The position numbers and the translations under genes were made by a program. The notes beneath the pieces were generated by a model, which was not told the DNA's origin, did not search any database, and worked only from the letters and a program-made list of their open reading frames with translations. Shown here piece by piece: positions 40 through 39,100 of a stretch of 64,000 bases of DNA. The DNA lies in assembly GCF_037975245.1 (NCBI RefSeq), contig NC_092579.1:28832666-28896665 (forward strand), given 5' to 3'. Positions within the stretch are counted from its first letter, which is position 1, and the number at the start of each line of letters is the position of its first letter. This stretch comes from Apostichopus japonicus (lineage: Eukaryota > Echinodermata > Holothuroidea > Aspidochirotida > Stichopodidae).

Positions 40-156
40 CTGTCTCACAATTGTCTCCTGTCCGGCAGGAGGAGCACTGGCAGGTGTAACTGTCACAGCC
101 CTCTGGGAGGCAGGTACCCCCTCCTTGACATGGATTAGGATCACAAGGGTCATTCA
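40..156 (-). CDS. Exon 49: EGF48 (last visible exon)
   Basis: A 117-base exon: [33 protein letters not shown]. It ends in a good donor (GTGAGG), so the gene continues outside the window. O-fucose consensus present. Confidence 0.87.
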
Positions 157-3100
157 CTGCGGTTACAAAAAATATGAAATATTATTGTAGAATCATTATT
201 TGAACAATACTCATGCTCCAGTTACAGAGTTGTTGACAATTAACAATTCATAATCATGGACGTTAAATATGTAAAAAATGTAAGAGACTGACTTCGGTCA
301 GCTTGCGGCTTTGATAAACCAATGAGGCTTCTTCGCGAGTTCCTGCTTGCAGGAGGATCTAATATACATACATACATACAAGTTACTGCTGCAGAATTTG
401 CTCCATTAACTAGTGACTATTATAATACCAGTCTGCAGGGCTTTTATCTAGTTAATATAATAATAGGATTCAAGGCAATGAGTCACCTCAGGAAAACTAC
501 TGCTACTGAATCAAAATTTCATTCACAGATTTAAAACTTCCATGCATGTACAACAAAATGCACAATAACAAATAAACCTTGTTTTTAATTAAACAACCAG
601 TTCATGGCAAGGACAGAAGGATAAAATGAACAGTATGTTTTTTAATAATAACTTACCAAGTTCACAAGAGAGCCCGGTGTTACATCCAGTGCAGGCACAG
701 AAGTAACTACTACACAAGCCAACCTCTGTCAAACATAACCCATTCTCTCCGCAAGGACTACTACTGCATGCATCCATATCTGTCATAGAGAATAAGTTAA
801 AACCATCATCTATATCAAACAAGCTTCTACAGTATTTGCCATTCCTGAGGAACTCAGGTATCTGCTATATATAAATTAAAATACAGAAATCCTTCCAGCT
901 AAGTCTTTTTGCATATCACTATGGTACTTTGCTTACATACATACTACATAACGCAGTTATGTTTGCCAACTACTGTCTGTATGCACAGATGTTAGCGTAA
1001 GCAGAAACACTACTTTGTAAACACATTATTACATTTATATTTTAATAATTTAAATTTGTAATCTGACTGAAACTAAATGCAATTAATTTGCAAACTCACC
1101 AGGCACATAAGTCATAAAAGAGGCAAATCAAAGACATGGATGGAAAATGGTATTTAGGAACAACATCTGTAGATTTGGCCAACGTTTATAGAAGATTGTG
1201 AGTTAGTTTTGATGAAGATTTTATACTTTTCATTGCTGAAGTTCTTTAAATAACCCAATTGTTTTGATTTCAGTTTCAGTTGATATATTGAAAATAAAAA
1301 AAAAGCAAACGAAACAAGGCAGTAGAAAAGTTTTGGTTCACACCTTTGCCTATGTGATAGAAAACATGACACAAGGACTGACCAATGACAATTTGACTAT
1401 AGAATGGAGTTATTATATACTAACTAACAAGTAGTGTTATATGAACTGCTTTCCATTATTATTTTGAGTAACACTTTTACGTAGGTTTGATGTTTTGAAT
1501 TTGTAAAAATTTTTGAGTATTTTCTAGAAAAAAAAGAAGAGATTTGACATAATTACTCATTTCACAATGTGTTCCTGAAAAGCAGCCTTGGCACAGACAG
1601 AAATAAATATTGCAATCTAAGGGACTGGTAAGGCATTCTGCTCCGTTCTGACAGGGAAATGAATCGCATGGATTTATAGCTGTAAAAAACAAAGAGAAAC
1701 AAATAAGAGAAAAGGGTGATTACATACATCATGTGCCTGGCTAATAGTAAGTGAATACAGCATTGTGTAAAACTGCAATCACCAGTTCTTTCAAACTACC
1801 TATTGCCCTCTGTCACTACTTTCCCTCCCTGCTCCCCAACCAGCCCACCAATATGCCCTCTTTCAAAAATTGATTGAATGCATTTTGTAATTTTTTTTTA
1901 CTATTGTAATGCAAGACAAGAACAGTACATAAATATTAACTGATTTTTTTTCAACAAACCTTTTTACTTGTTTCCTATGTTTCCATATATAAGTCACCCA
2001 GTTCAATGTGGATTACGAGACTAGTTTATACTCCATATTTATGCTACTTAACAGTCAATACTGACAGCAACACACAATCATATGCTCTCCTTTTTTCACA
2101 TTTTGCATAATAGGAATCTCTACCCAGGACTACAGATGCCCTACACAATGACTAGTACCAAGTAATTCTGTTGTTGCCATTCACATCTGCAAACAACATC
2201 CCCATTTGTCAGGTAGGCAAAGAAAGAAAAGTAAGCCCTTTGACTACAACATAATTACCAAACTATAGACTACTGGAAGACTTACGTGTTTCACAGAGAG
2301 GTCCAGTGAAGCAATCAGGACATACACACTGATACTCTGTACAAGCGCCCTCTAGCGGTGTGCACACTGCTCCATTACTACAGGGATTATTATCACAAGG
2401 ATCTGTTACTGTAAGGGTAAACAAGATGGACAAAATAGTCACACAGTGACAGTGGTGATCAGGTACGGATAAATTGATTGTCATCATGATCTATGCAGAA
2501 TGCCCAAAAAAATAGTCACATAATGACAGAGCTGGTCAGTTATTACATAAACAACCTTTACCAAGTCATGATCTGCTTAGTTTCTATAAACAGTCTCTGA
2601 TGAAACCTACAATAGTGAATAAAATGTTACAGGTATGAAATGATATTCCGGAAACGTTTGGGTAGTCATTCATGAGTATTACGACCGAACGATATGAAAT
2701 ATTTCTTCATTTTTTACGATACACTAAATAACTTCAGCAAACTATGGACTGACAAAATTGTCAGGGGACTAACTCAAAAAAACACCCAAGCTAATAGATC
2801 AGAGGAAGTGTATGAAACTCACAAGATTGACAGTTAATGCCAGTGTGACATCCGTCACATTCGCAGATGTAATCTCCACAGGTGTTGTTGTCTTGGCGAC
2901 AGAGTCCTCCGTTCTCACAAGGATCGGACAGACAAGGATCTAGAACTGTGAAGATGATTAAAATATCGTTTTATGTCTTGGTTTTGAAGGAATTAAATTA
3001 GGATGCCAAAAATTAAGACATCGTACGAAGAGTGAACTATCATGCGTAAAAAGCACACTCCAACTAGAAAACTACTGGCAATGCCCATATCACACACTTT

Positions 3101-36100: not shown

Positions 36101-39100
36101 TACATAGGCGACAAACCAGAGGATGATGTTAATGTTAATAACTTATCTAAGAAATGAGATGACAACAAATGAATATTAAAACAAAGTTGCACGGTGAGCA
36201 TTTTAGACTTGAATGGTAAAAATTGGAAGAAATTTCACAATGCACTTTTCTAAAGGAAAGAAACACTCCGTCACAAAGCTGTGTCACTTTTTCACCTGAT
36301 GGTGTTAATCCATCTTACAATACAGCCAAATAGTTATGATGTACAGTTAAGCAATACATATCCATGTTCATATTCAATGAAATTTCAACATTTTGTGGTC
36401 AAAATTGAAAACAAAACATGGGCCTTATTTTTAATCATGTTCATATATATCAACTTTCACAACAGACAGTGACCTACAAAGCAACAATAGGGATTATTAA
36501 AACCAGACAGACGATGACAAATAAAACAAAAAAAAGTTTTACACAAAGGTAAAAACTGACCTGTTTCACAATTTGGTCCCTCATAACACGGAGGACACTG
36601 ACAGATGTAGGCAGAGCATCCTGTCCCCAGAGAAATGCAGGTAGCACCATTCTGGCAAAGATTCAAATCACTGCACTGATCGAATTCTGGGGAGAGAAAA
36701 GAAGACGAGTAATATCTAGGATTTTCTGAATTGAGAAGGAGTATAAAACAGATACAATTACTTCTGGTTAAAAGTTGCCATTTTCTATCAGCTGTCATGA
36801 GAGAAAGTCTTTTTTTACTGCCTTTCAAGCAAAGGTAGATACACAGAATAATTGTTTTCATCCTTTTTGGGATGACAGACAAGGAGAGAAATAGAAGAAG
36901 TACTGGAACTTTCTGAAAATGATTTTCTCTACCCCGCCCTTACAAAAATATCAGGAAAATTCCCGGGACAACTTTATGACTTACGTTTTCCGCATGTTTC
37001 TCCAGCATAGCAGTCCAGGCAATTACAGACGGTAGACAAACAATCTTCGGTCATCAGGCATGAGGCTCCATTAAGGCAGGGATTATTGAGTGAGCACAGA
37101 TCAACAGCTGAAAATGAAAATAATTTTCACTCAGTGAAAGCAGAAGATGATCCAACAAGTATACAGTTTTGTGATATCTGTGATGTTATCATTCAACTCA
37201 ACAATATATCATCTTCCCCCATTTCTCCACCAACCTCTCCAACCCCCCCCCCCTCCCCTTCAATCCCATTCTCCCTCCTTATCCAACTTTCACTTTCAAA
37301 TTTCAGATGATAAAATTAGTCTGTACATATAACATTAAGCACAATAATCTCTTCTTTTTTAGCATTGTTATAGAACTACAAAGGAAAAGAAAGCTCACCA
37401 CCTTTATAAAGGTAATTCATGGGGAATATCAGTTCTTTAAACACAGAAAGGGAACGCAAGTAGCTCTTAAAATATTACCAAATTCACATCTCTGTCCCAG
37501 AAAGCATGTTGTGCACTGACAAGAATATGTATTGGAGAGATAGTTTGGTATACAATTTCCACCATTGAAACAAGGCTGCCAGCTGCATGGATCCGTAGCT
37601 TGAAGAGAAAGATCGCAGGTAAAAGATACACAAATTTACATGATAATGAATAGATTACAGAACAAAAATACAAATACAGTATAGAAAAAAAAGTACAAAT
37701 TACAGTACAAATACATTACAGTACATTAGTTGTTTCATTTTGCTAAAATGATACCAAATTGTAGATAAATAAATGGTAGTATCTCAGATTGGATATATTA
37801 TATAAACATTCTTTACATTCCTCATTAGAATGAACAAAATAACATTCCATAGTTATACATGTTTGCTACTTTGCAAAATCTTCTTCAATGAGGAACTCCT
37901 CACTTGTGAAATATTCTCATCACTTGCAATTAAAATATTTGATTTAGTTTATCAGATCTCTGACATGCACCGTCTAGTATACTTACTTGCACTCCACTGA
38001 AGTTGCCAGCCAGCCAATTCTGTACTAGAATCTGTGCTGAAATAAATCCATACAGCATCGTTCTCCAAAGTTATTTCTGCAGGGGACTCGCTTCCATCAA
38101 AAATCAAAACATTAGAGAGAATAGAAAGGTCGGTAAAATCTTCTGGAAGTTGAAAACCAGTCCCAATTGCAATAAAATCCTTTCCGTCGTCTATGCTAAA
38201 TAAGGTCTCAAATTCAAGTGAGATAGCTGTAGCAGTTGGTACAAAAATTTGATACAGCTTACGGAAATCTGAGATGTAGGATTGAGGATAATTTGGTGAT
38301 GAAAAAGTTGTCTGGCTGCAGTCATTTGGCCAGTTGAAGCATCTGTCAATTTCAGTTAAAGAATCTATAAAGAAAAGATGAAATGAATTAATAAACTAAA
38401 GTGAATTCTTGACTGTGGCTATACACCAACTTACAGATGACGATTGATTACAATTGGCATGGACCATTTCAGCAGAGTCAAGAGACTGGTCAGGTCCCAG
38501 GAACAAGCATGTCAATGAGCTCCCTAACTTAGGCCTGTTTGCACTCTTAAGTTGATTAAGTTATGAAAATACAAAGAGACCTAAGACTCCATTAATATTC
38601 TTTATTTCTCTGTGCCCCTCCTCAGTTGGGTTCCTATCAACAGCCTGATATATTTCAATGAATTTGCATGCACTTGTTAGAATTAGCAAACCTTCAAGAT
38701 ATACTGAAAATATACATTGAATAACAAAATGGTTTTCGGGTGACTATGTCAGGATTTTAAAGTTTTATATTGATGATAGTACTACTACTAAACTTGTAAA
38801 GTAGCCGATACTGAAGTACTCTGTAGCAGTGAGTTATACGATTTACTGTGTACGATTACGCCAACCTACCGTTGGGCTAACTTATTATATAAAGCTAATG
38901 TATTGCAGCCTAGGCCTAAGTTAAAAATATTAGACATGCAAACGTCTTAGACAAATTAGAGAGCACTTTACGCCTAGGCTACTACTTCTGATTATCCTTC
39001 AAATTGATACCGTCAAACAAACCAATACTCATCCACAAATCGTACTTCTAAAAGTAACCACGATCTAAATTAATTTCGGAAAACAAACTTTGTAAACACC

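Follow-up and report, generated by a model that had tools for sequence, protein, structure and literature searches.

Paired extra cysteines that probably bridge neighbouring EGF modules in a gene family of Apostichopus japonicus

A 64,000-nucleotide stretch of the genome of the holothurian Apostichopus japonicus (contig NC_092579.1, positions 28,832,666 to 28,896,665; hereafter "the window") carries part of a large gene that encodes a long array of EGF modules with two cysteines beyond the ordinary six. In this report, we found that these extra cysteines follow a strict order along the gene, as they do along related genes elsewhere in the genome. It is very likely that they form disulfides between neighbouring modules, the second extra cysteine of one module (Cb of module n) pairing with the first extra cysteine of the next (Ca of module n+1). 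The product would probably be a covalently stapled, calcium-independent EGF rod of up to 72 modules per unbroken run, assembled from three types of part and employed across an entire gene family, namely the CUB/EGF gene of the window and a set of HYR/EGF genes.

The 47 EGF modules of the window array all lie on the minus strand; eight cysteines are present in 46 of them and seven in one (37486-37587). This recount confirms the first-pass annotation of the window, which had counted eight cysteines in 46 of 47 consecutive domains, with one extra between C3 and C4 and one between C5 and C6. Ca lies inside the C3-C4 loop, five residues ahead of C4 (C4-5), in 46 of 46 eight-cysteine modules. Cb lies inside the C5-C6 loop at C5+3 in 47 of 47 modules, where it indeed replaces the near-invariant glycine of C5-x-x-G-[FY]. 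The surrounding [FY]-[ST]-G was also said to be retained, which is true of the glycine three residues ahead of C6 (46/46) but only partly of its companions: the residue following Cb is F or Y in only 34 of the 46 (36 if W is counted), and the second residue past Cb is S or T in only 29. The limits given for the array (40..37107) also need revision, because they leave out the seven-cysteine module and the array continues beyond position 1. The window modules have the six cysteines of an EGF-like domain with EGF spacing (C1-C6) and the glycine before C6; the plain EGF profile of Pfam (PF00008) is matched by 35 of the 46 at E<=0.1 and not by the other 11. Each phase-1 exon encodes a single module, with a splice acceptor 11 nucleotides upstream of C1 in 44 of the 46 (at 14 nucleotides in one, with no acceptor in another) and a donor 7 nucleotides downstream of C6 in 45. 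The sole exception in the window is a two-module exon (4242-4484), which may have arisen through the loss of an intron or through the gain of a module on the spot.

When the flanks were read beyond the window (80 kb on the left, 30 kb on the right; negative positions lie beyond position 1), the total for the big gene rose to 80 eight-cysteine modules, 46 in the window and 34 past position 1. In gene order, a weak EGF exon and a CUB exon precede run 1, which consists of a Cb-only module, 70 eight-cysteine modules and a Ca-only module. A second run has a Cb-only module, ten eight-cysteine modules and a Ca-only module, and a third is a Cb-only and then a Ca-only module (-29369, -30065) with no eight-cysteine module. 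Eleven ordinary six-cysteine modules lie 3' of these runs, and after them comes an open frame whose strongly hydrophobic stretch precedes a short charged tail. The hydrophobic stretch is a probable membrane helix; the frame has no Pfam match above cut-off (DUF4153, 15 bits against 27).

Further extra-cysteine modules are present on several contigs, as a protein search of the same genome revealed (150 of 2056 candidates scored). Part of the scored loci, picked by score and spread, were read; they included 15 small genes (L020-L031, L036-L039 and L042, some of them assembled from neighbouring pieces) together with four loci that lack extra-cysteine modules (L034, L035, L040 and L041). The upstream open frame encodes a HYR domain in 6 of 6 small loci scanned (L020, L021, L025, L028, L030 and L031). 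With B for a Cb-only module, A for a Ca-only module, 8 and 6 for eight- and six-cysteine modules, and T for a shortened final module that has C1-C4 and Ca but no C5 or C6, the small genes read B8888A6 (L020, L025, L028), B8888A6666 (L021), B888A6 (L022, L039), B888A (L023, L027), B888A66 (L030, L031), B88A666 (L029), B88T (L024, L026), B88T66 (L038) and, without its 5' end, 888A666 (L042). The shortened modules (L024:297-377, L026:4602-4682 and L038 near 2692) close runs as Ca-only modules do, which fits pairing between modules. Downstream of its run, L030 also has half-EGF units repeated every ~90-270 bp (1290-2153).

All 17 complete runs, 3 in the big gene and 14 in the small genes, open with a Cb-only module and close with a module that has Ca without Cb (14 full seven-cysteine modules and 3 shortened ones). 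The window's seven-cysteine exception is not noise, for seven-cysteine modules stand at run ends. Across junctions, the state of Cb in module n and that of Ca in module n+1 agree in 186 of 186 cases (142 both present, 44 both absent, 0 mismatched). Within modules, Ca and Cb are both present in 125, both absent in 46 and present singly in 35 (n=206). Of the 142 both-present junctions, 108 join two eight-cysteine modules and would be compatible with a bond inside each module as well, and 10 of the 44 both-absent junctions come from loci with six-cysteine modules only; the deciding junctions are those at the 35 single-cysteine modules. These counts exclude profile matches below 16 bits (among others 39462-39548, 3633-3707, a partial match at -38192 and the half-EGF repeats of L030) and two L041 junctions with unparsed modules. 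None of 20000 shuffles of the module order of the big gene was free of mismatches. In each of the 14 small genes zero mismatches arose in 638 to 1694 of 20000, figures that are not to be multiplied because the genes are related (L042 was left out of the shuffles and of the 17 complete runs). At the Cb site, 12 of 15 Ca-only modules have glycine.

The rule was first stated with two misfits: one was L021, at its 3' end, and the other a Cb-only module at about -21263 that directly followed an eight-cysteine module. A later profile scan located the Ca-only exon that the rule required (-19317..-19204), ahead of the internal Cb-only module at -21254. It also recovered both missing ends of L021, Ca-only and Cb-only. 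Flanks read later supplied the expected Cb-only starts of L027 and L022 and the expected Ca-only end of L029. The genes first read after the rule had been stated (L029, L030, L031, L038 and L039) all fit, and the read part of L042 does too. Chance or misparsed single-cysteine modules are ruled out, since the rule located modules missed in the first scan and held in the later-read flanks. Pairing of reversed polarity, Ca(n) with Cb(n+1), would require runs that open with a Ca-only module, and none of the 17 does. If pairing were of longer range, from n to n+2, a run would have to contain a pair of starters and a pair of terminators, but complete runs have a single starter and a single terminator.

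The positions of the two cysteines bear on the same question. Neighbouring EGF domains make contact through Gly-Phe/Tyr in the first domain and X-Gly in the second, according to the available part of PMC2724076. In EGF11-12 of Notch-1, the N-terminal domain contributes an aromatic residue that packs against a glycine and a hydrophobic residue of the C-terminal domain, and junction stiffness of EGF arrays is ascribed to calcium and packing (PMC3415683, as far as its available text goes). Neither paper treats these genes, and the mapping that follows is our own. By position, we read Cb as the glycine of Gly-Phe/Tyr in module n and Ca as the X of X-Gly in module n+1. As these match the published contact sites, both cysteines would lie at the neighbour contact, and with the right polarity.

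The C6-to-C1 linker is nearly constant at stapled junctions (6 residues in 111 of 124, 7 in 11 and 5 in 2) and has 6 residues in 8 of 17 unstapled ones, as measured where both splice sites were recognised, on the loci read by then. The array thus has the short constant linker of calcium-binding EGF (cbEGF) domains. Their ligand motif, [DN]-x-[DN]-[EQ]-C1, is not a feature of the eight-cysteine modules: [DN][EQ] precedes C1 in 8 of 125, against 6 of 46 six-cysteine modules from these genes and control loci, and [DN]E does so in 0 of 125 against 5 of 46.

From the ordering rule and these positions we infer the following arrangement. Toward the C-terminal end of module n, Cb would stand in for the glycine of Gly-Phe/Tyr; toward the N-terminal end of module n+1, Ca would occupy the X position of the X-Gly turn, so that a disulfide takes over the contact that a calcium-stabilised junction makes in Notch and fibrillin. 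A starter would need Cb alone and a terminator Ca alone, with any number of eight-cysteine links between them. The order read in the big gene would give 83 stapled junctions (71 + 11 + 1). The result would be a long, stiff and probably calcium-independent rod with little bending, perhaps a strut of the cell surface or matrix, with the putative membrane helix as its anchor and the CUB domain close to its tip. In sequence, the Ca-only module at -19204 is closest to the eight-cysteine module that precedes it. This likeness suggests that the break at -19204/-21254 arose by joint loss of Cb and the next Ca at one junction.

The first-pass annotation had also called the extra cysteines a paired gain, and we too find them a matched pair; its further proposal, a fourth disulfide inside each module, fares less well. 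A Ca-Cb bond within each module, with the run-end seven-cysteine modules keeping a free cysteine or bonding elsewhere, is the simple reading of a paired gain and would suit the 125 modules that have both. The run-end rule nevertheless rules it out as the leading account, and we consider it improbable. Only one of the two cysteines is present in 35 of 206 modules, and in 17 of 17 complete runs the Cb-only module comes first and the module with Ca but no Cb last, a polarity for which a bond inside the module gives no reason and which would leave two unpaired cysteines per run. Further, published structures, in the parts available, put the Ca site toward the preceding module and the Cb site toward the following one, and known EGF-EGF contact sites match Cb and Ca in position and polarity.

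Somewhat less probable still is a mixed arrangement, in which eight-cysteine modules bond internally while the lone cysteines at run ends link one chain to the next, head to tail, to form a polymer. Such an arrangement would account for the opposite lone cysteine at each run end, but it puts the same residues to two different uses. Moreover, a Ca-only module adjoins a Cb-only module within one chain twice in the big gene (-19204/-21254 and -28780/-29369), and eight-cysteine modules are wholly absent from one run. Least probable is that no bond exists and the order was merely inherited from one ancestral gene, the extra cysteines being free or metal-binding: the small genes do have common ancestry, but the rule persists over runs of 0 to 70 eight-cysteine modules and over a divergence to 55-66% nearest-relative identity, Cb(n) and Ca(n+1) are jointly missing at two internal breaks of the big gene, and that many free cysteines would be unlikely in a secreted protein.

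Several points weigh against disulfides between neighbouring modules, or at least temper the case for them. The exon order of the big gene and of the small genes was read from the genome, not from transcripts. Module classes were set by a parser tuned on the same sequences, and by eye for the 3 shortened modules; five modules with Cb one residue later (C5+4) were counted as Cb-bearing. The runs of the small genes are not independent, for the 15 genes are paralogues that fall into ten groups at 60% identity, with three genes 89-90% identical and most genes 55-66% identical to their nearest relative. A ninth cysteine in three modules of the eight-cysteine type (L025 at 2821, L027+L033 at 4379 and L042 at 6152) is paired by no scheme considered here. 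Finally, the missing calcium motif is weak support for staples: it is rare in six-cysteine modules too, and its lack therefore says little.

In tandem EGF arrays, disulfides do not normally reach beyond the single module. Known eight-cysteine EGF types (laminin-type, integrin I-EGF and EGF1 of protein C) have four bonds, with the extra pair intra-domain and at other places than Ca and Cb; at C4-5 and C5+3, the extra cysteines here are not those of laminin-type or integrin EGF modules. The first-pass annotation knew of no named domain class for this variant, and we found none with this cysteine pair in the available text of the open-licence literature, nor any description there of inter-module EGF disulfides at the Ca and Cb sites.

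The best PDB sequence matches of the eight-cysteine modules are EGF arrays of Notch and Delta (2vj3, 9b3n and 4xbm), and the Notch-1 alignments have six residues from C6 to C1, as do stapled junctions here. No cysteine occupies the Ca or Cb site in the 5 of 27 matched PDB sequences whose alignments were inspected. Notch and Delta use the same neighbour-contact sites, as far as the available parts of the sources go, but they have six cysteines, and it is calcium and hydrophobic packing that hold their junctions. The exons adjoining the array encode a CUB domain on one side and the probable hydrophobic helix on the other. Hallmarks of Notch receptors and Delta ligands are LNR repeats or a DSL domain. 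Fibrillin and LTBP also have long arrays of cbEGF modules, and their X-Gly and Gly-Phe/Tyr packing sites, in the source text available, are the positions changed here; their junctions bind calcium, probably unlike those of the array. We know of no extra cysteines of the Ca/Cb kind in fibrillin or LTBP arrays.

Octovafibrin of octopus egg tethers likewise has a long, load-bearing array, with 29 EGF modules not scored as calcium-binding (PMC10336842, in part). In the text examined of that paper, each module has six conserved cysteines and three intramolecular disulfides, and none between modules is described. Sea urchin fibropellins have up to 21 EGF modules with C1s-like and avidin-like ends, according to the same portion (PMC10336842). 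With fibropellins the big gene shares a CUB-type domain and an EGF array in an echinoderm; the CUB domain is present, and the 3' side shows the hydrophobic helix. Fibropellin modules are of the six-cysteine type. The holothurian body wall has fibrillin microfibrils, and the text examined of the paper concerned (PMC10381214) does not mention an eight-cysteine EGF family. PMC13228809 makes no mention of EGF, hyalin, HYR or fibropellin.

Within the window, the big gene runs leftward on the minus strand from a weak EGF-like exon (39462..39548; Pfam EGF 16.1 bits against a cut-off of 21.5) and an open frame with the CUB domain directly 5' of the array (37955..38395; PF00431, E=1.7e-11) to the starter of run 1 (37486..37587), which has Cb and no Ca. 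The eight-cysteine modules follow from C1 to C6, all on the minus strand. Modules 1 to 16 lie at 36992..37096, 36568..36675, 35958..36062, 35387..35491, 35028..35132, 34522..34626, 33810..33914, 33276..33380, 30162..30260, 29414..29518, 28377..28481, 27791..27889, 26941..27045, 26262..26366, 25620..25724 and 24812..24910; module 17, the top row of module alignment A1, lies at 24215..24319. Modules 18 to 32 are at 22531..22635, 21600..21704, 20900..21007, 20156..20266, 19106..19204, 18415..18519, 17600..17704, 15247..15351, 14797..14901, 14520..14624, 13741..13845, 12689..12793, 11532..11636, 10278..10382 and 9256..9360. Modules 33 to 38 are at 8146..8244, 7707..7811, 7265..7369, 6801..6905, 5955..6050 and 5120..5215. 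Modules 39 (4374..4475) and 40 (4248..4355) are the first and second of the two-module exon, and modules 41 to 45 occupy 3447..3551, 2830..2934, 2293..2397, 1564..1668 and 664..768. Module 46 (47..145) is the window's last, and run 1 has 24 more outside the window. A weak EGF-like match on the same strand between array exons (3633-3707) is perhaps a decayed module.

The 5' start of the big gene was not found in the sequence read. Two open frames at 48722-49824 on the minus strand resemble exons of ribosomal protein S9; if they are such, the 5' end of the EGF gene may lie at ~39.5-48.7 kb. On the plus strand, 52143-52700 consists of ~105 bp tandem units within an open frame (51886-53025) that encodes a repeated short cysteine-bearing peptide. 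Elsewhere in the genome, other EGF arrays have many equal-scoring modules (C19:22.98-23.01 Mb, C16:8.52 Mb and C3:5.15 Mb), seemingly recent tandem copies.

The genes detailed herein form an EGF array family in which, to judge from their sequences, a cysteine pair is most likely a link from one module to the next, not a closure within each. If this is true, the product would be a covalently locked rod, a kind for which we found no description in the accessible text of the open-licence literature. It would provide a natural experiment on the part that calcium plays at EGF junctions, as well as a ready pattern for stiff linkers. The rule of starter, link and terminator would make disulfide pairing readable from exon order, and the family would hint at the way in which an echinoderm may construct struts of its cell surfaces or matrix.

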